From Thermomonospora catenispora (GTDB lineage: Bacteria > Actinomycetota > Actinomycetes > Streptosporangiales > Streptosporangiaceae), in NCBI RefSeq assembly GCF_006363815.1, contig NZ_RRYT01000006.1:124216-188215 (forward strand): a DNA stretch of 64,000 nucleotides, in the 5' to 3' direction. The position numbers were made by a program, and so were the translations under genes. Positions 17,702-25,942 of the stretch are shown here, piece after piece. Position 1 is the first letter of the stretch, and every line of letters starts with the position of its first letter. The notes beneath the pieces were generated by a model. The model did not search any database, was not told where the DNA came from, and saw only the letters and a list, made by a program, of their open reading frames with translations.

Positions 17702-20218
17702 TCACATCCGATCCACCGACAGCACCCTGATCACCGCGGTGCCCTCCTCGTCGGAGGCGGCCAGGTCGACCTCGGCGGTGATGCCCCAGTCGTGATCGCC
17801 GGCCGGGTCGTCGAAGATCTGCCGGACCCGCCACAGCGCCTCCTCCGGCGCCTCCTCGATCATCAGCAACTGAGGCCCTCGGGCGTCCGGTCCGGTCAGC
17901 AGCTCCTCGTGCTCGGCGTAGTAGGCCCGCATCGCCTCCTCCCACGCCTGCGCGCCGAACTCCGGATCCAGCTCGCCCAGCTCGTCGTACCGTTCGAGGG
18001 CGGCCAGCTCCACCCGCCGGAACATCGCGTTGCGCACCAGCACCCGGAACGCGCGCGTGTTCGCGGTGACCTTGGCGGCCGGGGAGTCGGCGACCTCCTC
18101 GGGCCCCTCGGCGGCGGCCGCGGCGGGATTGGTCAGCTGCTCCCACTCGTCCAGCAGGCTGGAGTCGACCTGGCGGACCAGCTCGCCCAGCCACTCGATG
18201 AGGTCGACCAGCTCCTCGGTCTTCATCGACTCCGGCACCGTCTGCTGCAGGGCCTTGTAGGCGCTGGAGAGGTAGCGCAGCAGCAGCCCTTCCGCGCGGG
18301 CCAGCTCGTAGTGGCCGATGTACTCCACGAACGTCATCGCCCGCTCGTACATGTCCCGCGCGATCGACTTGGGCGAGAGCGGGTGGTCGCTCACCCACGG
18401 GTGGCCGCGCCGGTAGACGTCGTAGGCGGCCTGCAGCTCCTCCTCCAGCGGCTTGGGGTAGGTGATGTCCTGGAGCCGCTCCATGCGCTCCTCGTACTCC
18501 AGCCCTTCGGCCTTCATCCGGGCGACGGCCTCGGCGCGGGCCTTGTTCTCCTGAGCGGCCAGGATCTGCCGCGGGTCGTCCAGCGTCGCCTCGATCACCG
18601 ACAGCACGTCCAGGGCGTAGGTGGGGGAGGCGCGATCCAGCAGCTCGAAGGCGGCCAGCGCGAACGTCGACAGCGGCTGGTTGAGGGCGAAGTCCTCCTG
18701 CAGGTCGACGGTGATCCGGGCGTAGCGGCCCTCTTCGTCGGGCTCCTCCAGCTGCTCGACCACTCCCCCGGCCAGCAGCGACCGGTAGATGGCGATGGCC
18801 TGGCTGATGTGCCTGCGCTGCCGTTCGCGCGGCTCGTGGTTGTCGGTCAGCAGCTTCTTCATCGCCTGGAAGGCGTTGCCGGGCCGGGAGATCACCGACA
18901 GCAGCATGGCGTGGGTGACCTTGAAGCGGGACTGCAGCGGCTCCGGCGGCGCGCTCTGCAGCTTGCGGAAGGTGTCCTCGTTCCAGGACACAAAACCCTC
19001 GGGGGGCTTCTTGCGCACCACCTTGCGGCGCTTCTTGGGATCGTCGCCGGCCTTGGCCAGCGCCCGCTCGTTCTCGATCACGTGCTCGGGGGCCTGGGCC
19101 ACCACATATCCGATGGTGTCGAACCCGGCGCGGCCGGCCCGTCCGGCGATCTGGTGGAACTCGCGGGCCCGCAGCCGCCGCACCCGCTGCCCGTCGTACT
19201 TGCTCAGCGCGGTGAACACCACGGTGCGGATGGGGACGTTGACGCCGACGCCGAGGGTGTCGGTGCCGCAGATCACCTTGAGCAGCCCGGCCTGGGCCAG
19301 GCGCTCCACCAGCCGTCGGTACTTGGGCAGCATCCCGGCGTGGTGCACCCCGATGCCGTGCCGCACGAACCGCGACAGGTTGCGGCCGAAGCGGGTGGTG
19401 AAGCGGAAGTCGCCGATCATCTCGGCGATCTCGGCCTTCTCCTCCTTGGTGCAGACGTTGATGCTCATCAACGCCTGCGCCCGTTCCACCGCCGCGGCCT
19501 GGGTGAAGTGCACCACGTAGACGGGGGCCTTGTCGGCCTTGAGGAGGTCCTCGATGGTCTCGTGCAGCGGGGTGAGGCGGTACTCGTACTCCAGCGGGAC
19601 GGGCCGTTCGGCGGAGGTGACCACGGCGGTGGGACGGCCGGTGCGCCGGGTCAGGTCCTTCTCGAAGTGGCTGACGTCGCCCAGCGTCGCCGACATCAAC
19701 AGGAACTGCGCCTGCGGCAGCTCCAGCAACGGCACCTGCCAGGCCCAGCCGCGCTCCGGCTCGGCGTAGAAGTGGAACTCGTCCATGATCACGGTGCCGA
19801 TGTCGGCGTCGGCGCCGTCCCGCAGCGCGATGTTCGCCAACACCTCCGCGGTACAGCAGATGATGGGGGCGTCGGCGTTGACGCTGGCGTCCCCGGTCAT
19901 CATGCCGACGTTCTCGCTGCCGAACACCTCGCACAGGTCGAAGAACTTCTCCGACACCAGCGCCTTGATCGGCGCGGTGTAGAAGCTGACCTCGTCCCGT
20001 CCCAGCGCGGCGAAGTGCGCTCCGACGGCCACCAGGCTCTTGCCGGACCCGGTGGGGGTGGACAGGATCACGTTGGATCCCGACACCACCTCGATCAACG
20101 CCTCCTCCTGCGCCGGGTACAGCGTGATCCCGCGTTCGGACACCCATTCCTGGAATCTCTCGTAGAGGGTGTCGGGATCGGCGTGGGCGGGGGGCGGCAA
20201 TCGATCGATGAGACTCAC
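17702..20218 (-). CDS. DEAD/DEAH-box RNA/DNA helicase with C-terminal DUF3516
   Basis: An 838-residue superfamily 2 helicase of an actinobacterial type. Motifs: Walker A TPTGSGKS with Lys60, DEFH box 146-149, SAT at 176-178, then in the second RecA domain VHHAGMLPKYRR and HQIAGRAGRAG (motif VI). The C-terminal half is the DUF3516 region characteristic of these proteins, resembling Ski2/Mtr4-like helicases; a role in RNA turnover or repair is supposed but unproven. A GTG at 20218 is the start; the open frame beyond it is Arg-rich and unlikely. It ends 15 bp from the convergent epimerase. Confidence 0.93.
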   Translation of the reverse strand: MSLIDRLPPPAHADPDTLYERFQEWVSERGITLYPAQEEALIEVVSGSNVILSTPTGSGKSLVAVGAHFAALGRDEVSFYTAPIKALVSEKFFDLCEVFGSENVGMMTGDASVNADAPIICCTAEVLANIALRDGADADIGTVIMDEFHFYAEPERGWAWQVPLLELPQAQFLLMSATLGDVSHFEKDLTRRTGRPTAVVTSAERPVPLEYEYRLTPLHETIEDLLKADKAPVYVVHFTQAAAVERAQALMSINVCTKEEKAEIAEMIGDFRFTTRFGRNLSRFVRHGIGVHHAGMLPKYRRLVERLAQAGLLKVICGTDTLGVGVNVPIRTVVFTALSKYDGQRVRRLRAREFHQIAGRAGRAGFDTIGYVVAQAPEHVIENERALAKAGDDPKKRRKVVRKKPPEGFVSWNEDTFRKLQSAPPEPLQSRFKVTHAMLLSVISRPGNAFQAMKKLLTDNHEPRERQRRHISQAIAIYRSLLAGGVVEQLEEPDEEGRYARITVDLQEDFALNQPLSTFALAAFELLDRASPTYALDVLSVIEATLDDPRQILAAQENKARAEAVARMKAEGLEYEERMERLQDITYPKPLEEELQAAYDVYRRGHPWVSDHPLSPKSIARDMYERAMTFVEYIGHYELARAEGLLLRYLSSAYKALQQTVPESMKTEELVDLIEWLGELVRQVDSSLLDEWEQLTNPAAAAAEGPEEVADSPAAKVTANTRAFRVLVRNAMFRRVELAALERYDELGELDPEFGAQAWEEAMRAYYAEHEELLTGPDARGPQLLMIEEAPEEALWRVRQIFDDPAGDHDWGITAEVDLAASDEEGTAVIRVLSVDRM

Positions 20219-20942
20219 GCTCCCATCCTGCCCGGGGCCGCGGGGTGCCCACGACACGATCTCCTCTCGCCCTCCTCCCGCCCCCTCATCGCCCCGCGCC
20301 GTCCGCGGCCCCGGCCGCGACGCCCATGAGCGCCGCCGTGCGGAGCCCCGGGCCGCCCTGTCCGGTCTCCGGCGGCGACGGCCCGTGAGGGAGGGCGGCT
20401 TTCGCACGCGGCGTCGCCGGACGTCCGTCGCGGGCGGAGGCCGGTGTCGGCGGGGGCTCCTGCCGGCCGCCGCCCCGCGACCGGACGGGCGCCTCGTCTT
20501 CTTCGCCGTCGAGGCGGACGCCGGCCGTCGAGGGCGGCGTCGATGCGGGGCCGGGCGCCTCGCCGCGGCACCGGAAAGCCACCGGCCCGCGGTCTCCGCA
20601 TCGTGCCGGACACCGGTCGGGAAAGGCCCGACGATCATCGTTTCGGAGGGCCGGAAGGTCGAGTGATCACGCTGAGGCGCGCACCACCGGGGCACGGCGT
20701 GTCAAGGTCCCGTCAGGACTCGGGTTAAGACGATCGAAACGCGCCGGTCCGCATCCGCGGACCCCTGCTCCGGATCGTCCGCGCCCTTCGGACGGCGGCT
20801 GTGAAGGCCCTGCGCGTCCCCGGTCCGCACGAATCCGTCCGGGGATGAAGTGCGCTCTCATCCGCCCTCGATTATTCGCTGCCCAAAGCGTGGACGCTTG
20901 CTTACCATCGATGTCAAATCGGGTTGTCAAGGACGGCGGGCG
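20219..20942. other. Long intergenic region, no gene seen
   Basis: Divergent space between the helicase (minus) and the SecA-like gene (plus). Frames open across it give only Arg/Pro/Gly-rich translations and none has a good start site. The last 100 bp (about 20860-20940) is less GC-rich and is the probable promoter region of the SecA-like gene; it contains a short inverted repeat (AGCGT-GG-ACGCT) but no clear promoter boxes. Confidence 0.5.
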
Positions 20943-22628
20943 ATGGTGGCCGAGACGGTGAACAGGTGGGTCGGGCGGATCTCTGCGCGCCGGCTGTCCT
21001 CTCAGTGTCGTTCCATCGCCGAGCGGGTCGCCGCCCGGGAACCGGAGTTCCGAACGCTCTCCGACGCCGACCTGGCCGCCCTGACGGGGGCATACCGAGA
21101 GCGGATCGCGGCCGGGGAGGACCTGTCCGACCTGGCGGTCGAGGCGTTCGCGGCCGTCCGGGAGGCGGTGCGACGCACGCTCGGGCTGCGCCTGCATGAG
21201 GAGCAGATCATGGCCGGGGCGGCGATGGCGGCCGGCGCGATCGCCGACATGGCCGCGGGCGAGGGCAAGACCCTGGCCTGCGCGCCGCCCGCCTATCTGT
21301 GGGCTCTCGAGGGCTCCGCGGTGCACGTTCTCACCTCCGACGATCACCGGGCCGAGCAGGCCGTCCGCCGGCTGGAGCCGGTCTACCGGGCGCTCGGGGT
21401 CGACATCGGCCTGATCCGGCCGGACCTGGAGCAGGCGGCGCGCCGTGAGGCGTACGCGTCCGACGTCGTCTACGGCTCCCTCGACCAGATCGGCTTCGAC
21501 CTGCTCCGGGACGACATGGCCTCCCACCCCTCCGAGGTCGTCCAACGCGGTCTGGGCGTGGCCGTCGTGGACGACGCGCGCACGTGGTTCATCGATGAGC
21601 TCCGCCGCGAGCTGCGACTCTCCGCCGCGGCGCCTCAGGAGGCCGTGGAGCGGCGGGCCGAGTGGATCCGCGCCGCCCGGTCGCTGAGCAGGGAGGCCGG
21701 AGACTACGCCGTCGACCGCATCAGGCGGCTGGTCCGGTTGCGGGAACCGGGGATCGCCAAGCTCCGGGAGCTGCTGGAGGTCGACGACCTGGACCCGATC
21801 GAGAACGCGGTGCCGCTGGCGTTGACGGCCGCGGTCCTCCGGGCGCGGGAGTTCGCCGAGAAGGAGGAGCCCGCGCCCGACGAGGAGATCACGGTGAAGA
21901 AGATCTCGGCCGTCGGGGTGCTGCGCGAGTACGAGGGGGTGTGCGGCGTCTCGACCGACGCCGCACCGGAGGCGGAGATCTTCCGGCGCTGCTACGGCGT
22001 GACGGTGGTGCCGATCCCCTCCCGCCGCCCGGCGGAGGGCGGCCCGCGCAGTGCCCGCGCCCCGGAGCACTTCGAGGAGGATGTCGTCTTCCTCCACACG
22101 GTGGATCTGCAGCGGAGGGAGACGGCTTCCCGACGCGCCGCCGTGCTGGCGGAGGAGGACTGTTCCTCGATGATCGAGGACCTGCTGGCGGAGTTCGTCG
22201 AGCAGGAGCTCCACGGGCTGCCCCGAACACTGGGCCGCGAGGACGTCGAGGACGCGCTCGACCGCCTGCACCGGGTGTGCCCGATCTCGACGACGGCGGA
22301 CGAGCTGATGCGCGCCCCCCGGCGGACCGATGTCGCCGCGCGCCTGCGGGACGACGTCGCCGAGGCGTACCGACGCCGGGAGGACCGGTTCGGCTCGGAG
22401 GTGATGCGGGCGCTGGGACGGCTCGTCCTCCTGAGGGTGCTGGACCGCTGCTGGCATGAGCATCTGGCCAGGGCGGAGGCGCTGCTGGACAGCCTGCGCC
22501 TCCTCGACGCCCTCGGCGACGACCCGCTCGCGGACCACCTGAACGCGGTGGCCGAATCGTACGGCTTGCTGGAGCGGGAGTTCTGCCGGAACAGCGTGGA
22601 CCGCCTCTTCCGGCTGGAGGTGAGGTGA
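20943..22628 (+). CDS. Reduced SecA-like ATPase lacking motor domain 2
   Basis: A 561-residue protein clearly derived from SecA but about 300 or more residues shorter than the normal subunit. Its N-terminal part aligns by eye with nucleotide-binding domain 1: the SecA entry helices, Walker A AAGEGKT (Lys109), and a Walker B-like VVDDAR (Asp210-Asp211) where SecA has VDEVD. Part of the preprotein cross-linking domain follows, then a version of the SecA stretch around GMTGTA (here EGVCGVS), after which motor domain 2, including the arginine-finger region, is missing. The C-terminal helical scaffold is intact (VLLRVLDRCWHEHL). The zinc tail for SecB is absent. ATG chosen with AAGGA upstream. It may be an accessory or regulatory SecA relative, or a degenerating one; an active translocation motor is unlikely. 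Confidence 0.8.
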   Translation: MVAETVNRWVGRISARRLSSQCRSIAERVAAREPEFRTLSDADLAALTGAYRERIAAGEDLSDLAVEAFAAVREAVRRTLGLRLHEEQIMAGAAMAAGAIADMAAGEGKTLACAPPAYLWALEGSAVHVLTSDDHRAEQAVRRLEPVYRALGVDIGLIRPDLEQAARREAYASDVVYGSLDQIGFDLLRDDMASHPSEVVQRGLGVAVVDDARTWFIDELRRELRLSAAAPQEAVERRAEWIRAARSLSREAGDYAVDRIRRLVRLREPGIAKLRELLEVDDLDPIENAVPLALTAAVLRAREFAEKEEPAPDEEITVKKISAVGVLREYEGVCGVSTDAAPEAEIFRRCYGVTVVPIPSRRPAEGGPRSARAPEHFEEDVVFLHTVDLQRRETASRRAAVLAEEDCSSMIEDLLAEFVEQELHGLPRTLGREDVEDALDRLHRVCPISTTADELMRAPRRTDVAARLRDDVAEAYRRREDRFGSEVMRALGRLVLLRVLDRCWHEHLARAEALLDSLRLLDALGDDPLADHLNAVAESYGLLEREFCRNSVDRLFRLEVR

Positions 22629-22777: not shown

Positions 22778-23395
22778 TCAGCGCAGGCCGCCGAGGAAGG
22801 CGTCGACCAGCCCGTCGATGAAGTCCTCGTCCACCGGTTCGCCGGTGACCAGGATGCGGTAGTAGACGGGGCCGACGAGCCGTTCGGTCTCGGCGGCCAC
22901 GTCCAGGTCGGCGGGCAGCTCGCCGCGCCGCACCGCGCGTTCCAGCGGCAGGCGGTCCACGGCGCGCTGCCGGTCGAGGCAGCGGGCGCGGAAGTCGGCG
23001 GCGAACGCCGGATCGTGCTGGGCCTGGGCGATCAGCGCGCGGAACACGGCGCCCGCGTCGGTGCGGCCGAGGAAGAAGGCCAGCCAGCGCAGGTGGGTGC
23101 GCAGGTCACGGTCGAGGTCGCCATGGTCGGGCGGGGTCAGGTCCTCGGTCAGGTCCTGCAGGAACGCCTCCACCAGGATGTCGGTCTTGCTCTTCCACCA
23201 GCGGTAGACGGTCTGCTTGGCGACCCCGGCGCGCGCGGCGATGCCCTCGATCGTGACTCCCGCGAACCCCTTCTCCACGAGCAGGTCGTCGGCCGCTTCC
23301 AGGACGGCCCGACGGGCCTGCTCGCTGCGGCCGTACCGGTTGCCGTGGTGCCGCCGGGTCGATTCCGGCCGGGCGGTGTGCGCTGCGCCTGTCAT
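22778..23395 (-). CDS. TetR family transcriptional regulator of the adjacent methyltransferase
   Basis: A 205-residue TetR protein. HTH at about residues 28-72: FAGVTIEGIAARAGVAKQTVYRWWKSKTDIL, with the strongly conserved TVYRWW recognition helix; a TetR_C-type ligand domain follows (DAGAVFRALIAQAQ). Shine-Dalgarno GAGGGAG precedes the ATG at 23395. It is divergent from the O-methyltransferase gene, with only 68 bp between the two starts and a perfect 28-bp palindrome in that space, so it very probably represses both genes and is induced by a compound linked to the methyltransferase. Confidence 0.93.
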   Translation of the reverse strand: MTGAAHTARPESTRRHHGNRYGRSEQARRAVLEAADDLLVEKGFAGVTIEGIAARAGVAKQTVYRWWKSKTDILVEAFLQDLTEDLTPPDHGDLDRDLRTHLRWLAFFLGRTDAGAVFRALIAQAQHDPAFAADFRARCLDRQRAVDRLPLERAVRRGELPADLDVAAETERLVGPVYYRILVTGEPVDEDFIDGLVDAFLGGLR

Positions 23396-23456: not shown

Positions 23457-23463
23457 GATGGGC

Positions 23464-24117
23464 ATGACGCACATCAGCACGCTCGCCGACCCGCGGGTCG
23501 CGAACGCACTCGACCGGATGTTCACCGCCGCCGACCGCGACAAGGAGGTCATGGCCCGCGCCGATCTCGACGCCTTCGCCGCGATGACCACGCGCGAACG
23601 CGTCGACGCCGCCGCGGACGTCTACATGCCCGTCTCCGAGGCGGGAGGCAGGCTGCTCTACGCCCTGGTGCGCGCCGCCCGCCCGGCCACCGTGGTGGAG
23701 TTCGGCACCTCGTTCGGGATCTCCACCCTGTTCCTGGCCGCCGCGGTGCGCGACAACGGCATCGGACGCGTGGTGACCACGGAGCTCAGCCCGGACAAGA
23801 TCGCCGCGGCGCGCCGCACCTTCGCCGAGACCGGCCTGGACGATGTGATCACCGTCCTGGAGGGAGACGCGCTGGAGACCCTGGCGACCCTCGAGGAGCC
23901 CGTCGGGTTCGTCCTCCTCGACGGCTGGAAGGAGCTCTGCCTGCCGGTGCTGCGGCTGCTGGAGCCGCGACTGACGCCCGGAGCCCTCGTCGTCGCCGAC
24001 GACGTCACCATGCGCGAGCTGGCGCCCTGTCTGGAGTACGTCCGCGATCCCGCCAACGGCTACCACAGCGTGACGTTCCCCGTCGGGGACGGCATGGAGA
24101 TCAGCTGCCGCCTCTGA
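23464..24117 (+). CDS. SAM-dependent O-methyltransferase
   Basis: A 217-residue class I methyltransferase of the catechol/caffeoyl-CoA O-methyltransferase type. SAM-binding motif I is VVEFGTSFGISTLFLA, motif II follows as VVTTELSPDKIAAA, and the metal-site region includes VLLDGWKELC and VVADDVTM, with Asp residues as in Mg-dependent relatives. Two in-frame ATGs lie 6 nt apart (23458 and 23464); the second falls at the expected transcription start for the -10 box in the palindrome, so a leaderless mRNA from 23464 is favoured. No Shine-Dalgarno. Acceptor unknown, probably a small phenolic or xenobiotic given the TetR partner. Confidence 0.88.
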   Translation: MTHISTLADPRVANALDRMFTAADRDKEVMARADLDAFAAMTTRERVDAAADVYMPVSEAGGRLLYALVRAARPATVVEFGTSFGISTLFLAAAVRDNGIGRVVTTELSPDKIAAARRTFAETGLDDVITVLEGDALETLATLEEPVGFVLLDGWKELCLPVLRLLEPRLTPGALVVADDVTMRELAPCLEYVRDPANGYHSVTFPVGDGMEISCRL

Positions 24118-24514: not shown

Positions 24515-25942
24515 TCAGGCCTCGACCTCGGAGCGGTCGCCGCTCCAGAGGGTGTGGAAAGAGCCCGCGCGGTCGACCCGGCGGTAGGTGTGGGCGCCGA
24601 AGAAGTCGCGCTGCCCCTGGATGAGGGCCGCCGGCAGCCGCTCGGCGCGCAGCGCGTCGTAGTAGGCCAGGGCGCTGGAGAAACCGGGCACCGGGACGCC
24701 CAGCTCGGCGGCGGTGGCGACGACGCGGCGCCAGGCGCTCTGGGCGGCGCCGACGGCGTCGGCGAAGTGCTCGTCGGCGAGCAGGGTCGGGATGCGCGGA
24801 TCGGCCTGGTAGGCGGCGCGGATGCGGTCCAGGAAACGGGCGCGGATGATGCATCCGCCGCGCCAGATGGCGGCCATCCGCCCGAGGTCGATGTTCCAGC
24901 CGTACTCGTCGCTGCCGGCCTGGATCTGGTGGAATCCCTGCGCATAGGCGACGATCTTGGAGGCGTACAGGGCCTGCTCCACATCGTCGGCGAACACGTC
25001 GGCGTCCACCGGCCGCCCCGGCGTCGGTCCGGGCAGGCGGCGGGCGGCCTCGCGGAGCGGCACGTGGCCGGAGAGCGATCGGGCGAACACCGCCTCGGCG
25101 ATGCCGTTCACCGGAACGCCCAGGTCCAGGGCGGTCTGCACGGTCCAGCGGCCGGTGCCCTTCTGCTCGGCCCGGTCCAGCACCACGTCCACGAAGGGGG
25201 CGCCGGTGGCCGGGTCGGTGTGCGCGAGGACCTCGGCGGTGATCTCGATCAGGTACGACTCCAGCCGTCCGCCGTTCCAGGCGCGGAACACCTCGGCGAT
25301 CTCCGCGGGCCCCAGTCCGGCGGCCCGTCTGAGCAGGTCGTACGCCTCGCCGATCAATTGCATGTCCGCGTACTCGATGCCGTTGTGGACCATCTTGACG
25401 AAGTGGCCCGCCCCGTCGGGGCCCACGTGCGCGCAGCAGGGCTCGCCGTCCGCCTCGGCGGCGATGTCCTCCAGCAGCGGCCCCAGCTCCCGGTAGGACT
25501 CGGCCGAGCCGCCCGGCATGATGCTGGGCCCGTGCAGCGCCCCCTCCTCGCCGCCGGAGATGCCGGCGCCGACGAAGTGGATGCCGCGTTCCCGCAGCGC
25601 CCTCTCGCGCCTGCGGGTGTCGGCGAAGTGCGCGTTGCCGCCGTCCACGATCATGTCGCCGGGCGCCAGCAGCGGCGCGAACTCCTCGATCACCGCGTCG
25701 GTGGGGGCGCCCGCCTTGACCATGATCACCAGCCGGCGGGGGCGTTCCAGCGCCGCCACGAACTCCTCCGGCGTGGAGGCCGGAACGAACGTCCCCTCGT
25801 GGCCGAACTCCTCGATCAGCGCCTTGGTCCGGGCCTCGGTGCGGTTGTGCACGGCCACCGGATGACCGTGCCGGGCCAGATTGCGGGCCAGATTCCGGCC
25901 CATCACCGCCAAGCCGGTGACGCCGATGCGCGCCTGTGCCAT
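24515..25942 (-). CDS. gnd: 6-phosphogluconate dehydrogenase, decarboxylating
   Basis: A 475-residue enzyme of the pentose phosphate pathway: 6-phosphogluconate plus NADP+ gives ribulose 5-phosphate, CO2 and NADPH. NADP-binding GLAVMG at residues 10-15, HNRT at the end of strand 2, substrate motif GISGGEEGALHGPSIMPGG, catalytic Lys/His region HFVKMVHNGIEY, and DRAEQKGTGRWT near the active site. Length is normal for the long (gndA) type. ATG with GAGGGGAAG about 7 nt upstream. It is divergent from the beta-phosphoglucomutase gene, so sugar phosphate handling is grouped here. Confidence 0.96.
   Translation of the reverse strand: MAQARIGVTGLAVMGRNLARNLARHGHPVAVHNRTEARTKALIEEFGHEGTFVPASTPEEFVAALERPRRLVIMVKAGAPTDAVIEEFAPLLAPGDMIVDGGNAHFADTRRRERALRERGIHFVGAGISGGEEGALHGPSIMPGGSAESYRELGPLLEDIAAEADGEPCCAHVGPDGAGHFVKMVHNGIEYADMQLIGEAYDLLRRAAGLGPAEIAEVFRAWNGGRLESYLIEITAEVLAHTDPATGAPFVDVVLDRAEQKGTGRWTVQTALDLGVPVNGIAEAVFARSLSGHVPLREAARRLPGPTPGRPVDADVFADDVEQALYASKIVAYAQGFHQIQAGSDEYGWNIDLGRMAAIWRGGCIIRARFLDRIRAAYQADPRIPTLLADEHFADAVGAAQSAWRRVVATAAELGVPVPGFSSALAYYDALRAERLPAALIQGQRDFFGAHTYRRVDRAGSFHTLWSGDRSEVEA

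Follow-up and report, generated by a model that had tools for sequence, protein, structure and literature searches.

The window, a 64,000-nt stretch of the Thermomonospora catenispora genome (assembly GCF_006363815.1, contig NZ_RRYT01000006.1, positions 124,216-188,215), carries a gene that encodes a SecA homologue devoid of the second nucleotide-binding domain (NBD2), which we call secAx (Table 1). A DEAD helicase gene with a DUF3516 domain flanks it on one side; on the other, two divergently oriented genes separate it from gnd, one coding for a TetR-family regulator and the other O-methyltransferase-like. No operon is evident, as secAx is divergent from the helicase, and promoter and terminator scans returned no sites. 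An alternative GTG start at 20850 is possible and would lengthen the protein to 592 residues. A homologue lies in G322, a single-contig genome of the same family but of another genus.

Table 1. Features of the secAx locus, in coordinates of the 64,000-nt window; residue numbers refer to the 561-residue protein.
Feature	Position	Strand	Basis or remark
DEAD helicase with DUF3516, divergent neighbour	17702..20368	-	flank conserved in G322; start codon provisional
AAGGAC, likely ribosome-binding site	20929..20934	+	8 bases between AAGGAC and ATG; read directly
secAx (P0001), NBD2-less SecA homologue	20943..22628	+	561 aa plus stop; ORF list and Pfam
NBD1, first part, residues 14-218, RecA/DEAD-like fold	20982..21596	+	Pfam SecA_DEAD, model
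Walker A AGEGKT, residues 105-110 (GEGKT 106-110), intact; PEEDGA in G322	21255..21272	+	alignment
Walker B position, DDARTWFIDE, residues 210-219	21570..21599	+	alignment
Preprotein cross-linking domain remnant, residues 219-320	21597..21902	+	alignment, Pfam, model; mostly low model confidence
NBD1 return, residues 321-363, ending in IPSRRP	21903..22031	+	alignment
GVSTDA, residues 335-340, in place of GMTGTA	21945..21962	+	alignment
Linker at the excision point, residues 364-375	22032..22067	+	alignment, NBD2 searches
Helical scaffold, helical wing and two-helix finger, residues 371-561 (piece modelled), no zinc tail	22053..22625	+	model
TetR-family regulator, between secAx and gnd	22778..23395	-	
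O-methyltransferase-like gene, between secAx and gnd	23458..24117	+	
gnd, 6-phosphogluconate dehydrogenase	24515..25942	-	flank conserved in G322

The Pfam profile SecA_DEAD matches residues 14-346 of secAx (E 4e-64, 217.1 bits, cut-off 24.6) and SecA_SW matches residues 389-558 (E 2.9e-14, 54 bits, cut-off 26.7, profile positions 38-199 of 200). All 24 distinct PDB sequences matched are SecA or SecA2, the best at E 2.8e-58. These matches bear out the first-pass annotation, which had read the gene as SecA-derived; judged by sequence comparison, secAx is a SecA homologue with a similarity far beyond chance. It scored far under the cut-offs of the curated families, with 282.9 bits for NF009538 (cut-off 814) and 245.4 bits for TIGR00963 (cut-off 800), the two SecA equivalogs, for which the SecA1 of the same genome reached 1268.4 and 1185.4 bits, and with 166.7 bits for TIGR04221, SecA2_Mycobac (cut-off 725). 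By these cut-offs secAx is a member of neither SecA nor SecA2; it is a rare, fast-evolving SecA variant. The genome encodes one full SecA1 in a 964-codon frame, to which secAx is 40% identical over residues 17-308.

The profile of NBD2, PF21090 (P-loop_SecA), scored 324.6 and 322.9 bits in two SecA1 controls, the former being that of the same genome, while no match (E up to 0.01) was obtained in secAx or in its G322 relative. The NBD2 of the genome's own SecA1, used as a query against the whole window, found nothing better than E 0.2. NBD2 is gone from secAx by these searches, as had been proposed, and the gap falls near the domain borders in the alignment. About 234 SecA1 residues between two alignment anchors are without counterpart: the NBD1 alignment reaches IPSRRP (IPTNKP in SecA1), and beyond a linker of roughly twelve residues the next segment, HFEED...DLQRRETASRRAAVL, aligns to the long scaffold helix of SecA. 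The start of this helix aligns without gaps to six viral-contig SecAs and with a three-residue gap to actinobacterial SecA1; it is placed less well in the larger alignment behind the tree and the conserved-column counts. In E. coli SecA, PMC6620043 gives the borders as 9-220 and 378-411 for NBD1, 221-377 for the cross-linking domain (PPXD), 412-620 for NBD2, 621-672 and 756-832 for the scaffold and 673-755 for the wing. Since the C-terminal piece of secAx starts at E. coli residue 637 in a structural alignment, NBD2 and roughly the first 16 residues of the scaffold are gone. A second loss comprises 39 SecA1 residues of the cross-linking domain, DEFTGR included. A remnant of this domain is present, with a SecA_PP_bind score of 18.9 bits, under the cut-off of 23.5; the description of the domain as shortened was correct in kind but understated the loss. 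The C-terminal zinc tail is also missing, as the alignment shows.

We compared the windows of NBD1 that we take to be the Walker A, Ia, Walker B and TGT motifs. The own-genome SecA1 reads TGEGKTL, TVNDYLA, DEVDSILIDE and GMTGTA at these positions, secAx reads AGEGKTL, TSDDHRA, DDARTWFIDE and GVSTDA, and the G322 copy reads PEEDGAL, TVDDERA, NGIGTLLVDG and GVSAGA. The intact GEGKT and the weakened Walker B (DDAR for DEVD) were thus correctly read at first pass. In both copies Walker B, TGT and all NBD2 motifs are lost, and in G322 Walker A is lost too. With motif windows of our own choice, secAx keeps 25 and G322 keeps 18 of the 51 SecA1-invariant motif columns of NBD1, against 32-40 in 19 SecA2 rows. 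Of the 53 such columns elsewhere in NBD1, the pair keeps 31 and 24, against 18-31 in SecA2. By these counts, the loss of residues in the pair is specific to the NBD1 motifs.

Conservation of SecA1-invariant columns in the other regions of secAx is uneven. It amounts to 13/38 in the cross-linking domain, to 13/29, a moderate share, in the finger and tail, and to 5/20 in the long scaffold helix, the last being a soft count because the helix start is poorly aligned; the residues of the finger tip differ from those of SecA1. The claim that the regions contacting SecYEG and preprotein are retained is therefore not supported as it was worded, though the scaffold, the wing and the two-helix finger are present. 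Across the protein, 63 of 220 SecA1-invariant sites are kept in both copies, where 42 would be expected if losses were independent (hypergeometric p 7e-9), an excess to which common ancestry contributes too. Summed over regions, 52 positions are identical in the pair and present in none of 20 SecA1s.

Structure models were built for the full-length protein and for its C-terminal 191 residues (371-561) alone; the alignment rows of both were SecAs, which favours a SecA-like outcome. The full-length model (8 SecA rows) reached a pLDDT of 74.1 and a pTM of 0.49; it is confident in NBD1 and in the C-terminal helices, but a large part of the linker and of the cross-linking remnant falls below 50. 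Its NBD1 superposes on the motor domains of E. coli SecA (3bxz_B) with a Z of 36.8 and an rmsd of 2.5 over 267 residues. Superposition of the full model on most full SecA chains gave an rmsd of 11-23, and the mutual arrangement of the domains is therefore not fixed by the model. The C-terminal piece gave a pLDDT of 89.8 and a pTM of 0.81; it matches residues 588-779 of B. subtilis SecA (3jv2_B; Z 19.2, rmsd 2.6 over 184 residues) and also residues 637-832 of E. coli SecA, the best non-SecA row having a Z of 9.8. In the window copy, both NBD1 and the scaffold/wing/finger unit are thus modelled as still SecA-like domains.

In order to determine how widely secAx is distributed, we searched sets of genomes at increasing taxonomic depth. 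Using secAx as query, matches beyond the level of SecA1 (E 1e-62) were found in 2 of 341 genomes of the family, namely its own and G322. An alignment query, with 3 or 4 candidates scored per genome, returned the same two among 345 genomes of the order (E 1e-79), and only the own genome among 394 of a class sample (E 1e-79) and 396 of a phylum sample (E 1e-78); these genome sets overlap, and thresholds were set just beyond SecA1 scores, so that a more diverged relative scoring under SecA1 would escape these counts. Within the genus of G322, only G322 itself exceeds the SecA1 level (1/65), the 64 others having no match at that level, and the four other genomes of the own genus contain SecA1 only and no secAx (E up to 1e-30). 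Its absence above the SecA1 level from all of these genus mates indicates that secAx is dispensable. The four mates of the own genus also lack SecA2, since each gave two matches at E up to 0.001 and both were pieces of SecA1; no SecA2 was detected in any of the five own-genus genomes. Many other sampled genera of the family carry a SecA2-like frame, mostly of 750-850 codons, and one genome (G025) has two different ones, at C1:2051702 (798 codons) and C1:5974238 (797 codons, on a long branch). Five genomes of the G322 genus, G304 and G293 included, gave weaker NBD1 matches in frames of 1003-1052 codons; the SecA1s of G304 (locus L116) and G293 (L117) bear 16- and 24-residue insertions, respectively, upstream of Walker A.

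The G322 homologue has the same NBD2-less architecture and occupies the same slot: the gene order is gnd, secAx, helicase, and, like the window copy, secAx is oriented divergently to the helicase. The TetR and O-methyltransferase-like genes have no match at the gnd-helicase loci of G322 or of the genus mates G001 and G003. In these two mates, 229 and 39 bases separate the matched gnd and helicase stretches, without secAx. At 20 loci of family genomes containing the helicase flank, no SecA-like ORF was found (best E 0.5), gnd also being in the piece at only 5 of them. Vertical descent followed by many losses best accounts for a homologue in the same slot, transfer into the slot being a less likely alternative.

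Among mobile elements, 125 plasmid and 20 phage records matched, none of them with 80% of the secAx query in one place. At 13 loci of viral contigs, SecA-type frames of 534-1279 codons were found, several cut by contig ends, and none was recognised as NBD2-less. In L068 and L069, contigs labelled viral and 50 and 79 kb long, a SecA-like frame of 1132 codons has an unusual N-terminal region. The sole locus from a search of named genomes (L033; Nocardia aurantia NZ_WEGI01000001.1, 2383-12372) was rejected as an orthologue because its SecA domain has an NBD2 and lies inside a very long frame. This frame, of at least 3330 codons and running off the piece, combines a WXG100-like N-terminus, SecA_DEAD, the SecA cross-linking domain, NBD2 (P-loop_SecA) and a weak, sub-threshold sugar-transferase signal; the SecA motor here forms part of a giant and possibly polymorphic-toxin-like protein.

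The parentage of secAx was analysed in a tree of 20 SecA1s, 19 SecA2s and 4 viral-contig SecAs. The secAx pair forms a clade (100/99) with very long branches of 2.0 and 2.8 changes per column, and all 19 SecA2 rows lie on one side of a branch supported at 100/100, with secAx outside. AU tests rejected none of the candidate sisters, be it SecA2 (p 0.433), the SecA1 of the order or family (p 0.495) or the SecA1 of the two genera (p 0.461). The wing, present in secAx and SecA1 and absent from the seven SecA2s aligned, points to SecA1 as the parent, and secAx is probably SecA1-derived. Its N-terminal AETVNRW resembles that of some SecA2s (AETVRRM in L039). Helicase and gnd were not found in 6-10 kb pieces around 18 SecA2 loci.

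We then compared the divergence of secAx between the window and G322 with that of its neighbours. The two copies are 40% identical, against 84-85% for helicase and gnd. NG86 estimates gave a dN of 0.60 and a dS of 0.69 for secAx (crude dN/dS 0.87), against 0.107 and 0.44 for gnd and 0.108 and 0.379 for the helicase; dS is unreliable at a GC3 of 0.93-0.95, and the fourfold sites of secAx are near saturation. Nonsynonymous divergence is thus about 5.5 times that of the two neighbours. The first-pass annotation had held that a lack of orthologues combined with relaxed selection would speak against it: one orthologue was found, and only one, and it shows this faster divergence. Identity at fourfold sites is 0.493 in secAx (chance 0.455), against 0.678 in the helicase, 0.649 in gnd and 0.773 in SecA1; three other frames of 53-75% identity, not all of them verified genes, gave 0.46, 0.57 and 0.59. 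Horizontal arrival and a deeper age are candidate readings of the near-chance value.

Both frames are open end to end, in line with the earlier statement that an open frame is maintained. In neutral simulations of substitutions started from the window gene, 1.5% of 400 frames were still open at 0.3 changes per site and GC2 had risen to 0.58; at 0.5 changes per site, these values were 0.25% and 0.63. The observed GC2 is 0.476 and 0.518. The codon bias, previously called normal, is so only roughly: although GC3 reaches 0.934, the codon adaptation index, referenced to helicase, gnd and SecA1, is 0.651 (0.650 in the G322 copy), against 0.706-0.742 in four neighbours outside the reference. Taken together, the open frames, GC2, the jointly kept sites and the fast divergence indicate quick evolution under a weak but real coding constraint, at present or until recently.

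In the same order as in SecA1, secAx has the NBD1 fold, scaffold, wing and two-helix finger; it differs from SecA1 in lacking NBD2, Walker B, TGT, part of the cross-linking domain and the zinc tail. With actinobacterial SecA2 (TIGR04221) it shares being a second SecA-like protein without a zinc tail. However, the seven SecA2s aligned have no wing but retain the two NBDs and the ATPase motifs, whereas secAx lacks NBD2 and has the wing; the SecA2 frames that we fetched have 751-818 codons, and G322 carries a 784-codon SecA2 besides its secAx homologue. Among the layouts compared, secAx therefore fits no known SecA2, as had been noted. Secondary SecA_DEAD proteins of Planctomycetes, Verrucomicrobia and others are likewise extra, rearranged and of unknown role (PMC4452313). 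In them, SecA_SW is absent or reduced to a small fragment and the genes lie near type I secretion genes, whereas secAx keeps SecA_SW and sits between the DUF3516 helicase and gnd. Closest to the retained C-terminal unit is the E. coli fragment C34, described in PMC5456053 as a scaffold/wing/finger unit plus tail that acts in trans, as is proposed for secAx. In that paper, C34, N68 and N609 are laboratory truncations, not natural genes, and N609 keeps NBD2. Searches of open-licence PMC papers turned up none that describes a natural SecA lacking NBD2.

According to PMC6620043, the interface of NBD1 and NBD2 is where ATP binding and hydrolysis take place, and PMC7503281 states that Walker-A lysine mutants lose ATP binding while Walker-B mutants bind ATP and do not hydrolyse it. 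As secAx has no NBD2 and a changed Walker B, ATP hydrolysis is not expected. We tentatively favour the reading that secAx is a catalytically dead SecA paralogue with a non-hydrolysing, binding role, perhaps modulating SecA1, though we would put it somewhat below an even chance. In its favour are the lack of NBD2 in both copies, the shared excision at one locus, the motif-specific losses, the SecA-like model of the C-terminal unit and the frames kept open. One old excision of NBD2 in the common ancestor of the two copies would have left a protein that is no longer a motor. Such a protein may bind without hydrolysing ATP, its most likely role being that of a Sec-pathway accessory or inhibitor whose scaffold and finger would pair with SecA1 or occupy a SecA site on SecYEG or on a client. 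A Sec accessory is favoured because the retained unit corresponds to C34 without the tail, and C34 down-regulates the SecA ATPase, as PMC5456053 states from earlier work. In the same paper, the E. coli fragments N350 and M48 show no detectable intrinsic ATPase activity, or little (N350), a fragment comprising residues 1-493, with only part of NBD2, still has some, and C34 complements N619 and longer N-terminal fragments in trans but not N609, C34 with N609 giving no channel or translocation activity. Given the activity of fragment 1-493 and the inactivity of C34 with N609, it is not certain that a SecA without NBD2 is dead, or that secAx would act in trans as C34 does. The poorly kept preprotein and long-helix surfaces, the only moderately kept finger and tail, the lack of an evident operon, the dispensability of the gene and the crude dN/dS also count against a Sec modulator.

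This weak conservation of substrate-facing parts and the rarity of secAx keep another explanation close behind, a serious rival although itself well short of probable: a duplicated SecA may have lost NBD2 and its function, the frame of a disappearing gene persisting because decay is slow in GC-rich DNA. Carriage by only two of 341 family genomes, a dN of 0.60 (dS 0.69) against about 0.11 in both flanks, the two very long tree branches and a codon adaptation under the four neighbours in both copies all agree with such a relic. Yet the open frames, the coding GC pattern and the jointly kept invariant sites, to the last of which ancestry adds, are unlike neutral drift; the C-terminal unit is predicted to be foldable, and the likely start has a Shine-Dalgarno-like sequence.

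Fast evolution could instead be adaptation, if the NBD1 core and the helical unit had been recruited as a binding or nucleotide-sensing module with a new function unrelated to Sec. In line with such recruitment, conservation is among the lowest in the cross-linking and long-helix regions, 52 pair-identical positions occur in none of the 20 SecA1s and the window copy keeps GEGKT; we nevertheless consider it unlikely, since the neighbouring genes point to no other pathway and 63 of the 220 SecA1-invariant sites are still common to both copies. An assembly or frameshift artefact that hides an NBD2, whether in a longer form of the gene or in an adjacent one, is very improbable. The assembly does comprise 109 contigs, but secAx is one open frame inside a 203,819-base contig, NBD2 was found nowhere else in the window, and the same excision at the same locus recurs in the single-contig genome of G322. 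The first-pass annotation had named assembly error as a possible refutation.

The usual view of SecA is that of a motor dependent on both of its nucleotide-binding halves. A natural SecA that lacks NBD2 and whose ATPase motifs decay, present at a single locus in two genera, would show that the binding parts can serve apart from the motor, and secAx would offer a ready-made tool to separate binding from translocation. If secAx, in the dead-paralogue reading, were a natural half-motor acting in trans, pairing with SecA1 or capping SecYEG through scaffold and finger and so braking or redirecting export, a form of that reading which we regard as quite improbable, it would be the evolved counterpart of the laboratory fragment C34, and the control of export by a pseudo-SecA would become testable. 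Even if it were only a relic, secAx would still be a clean example of domain-wise loss in the duplicate of an essential motor.
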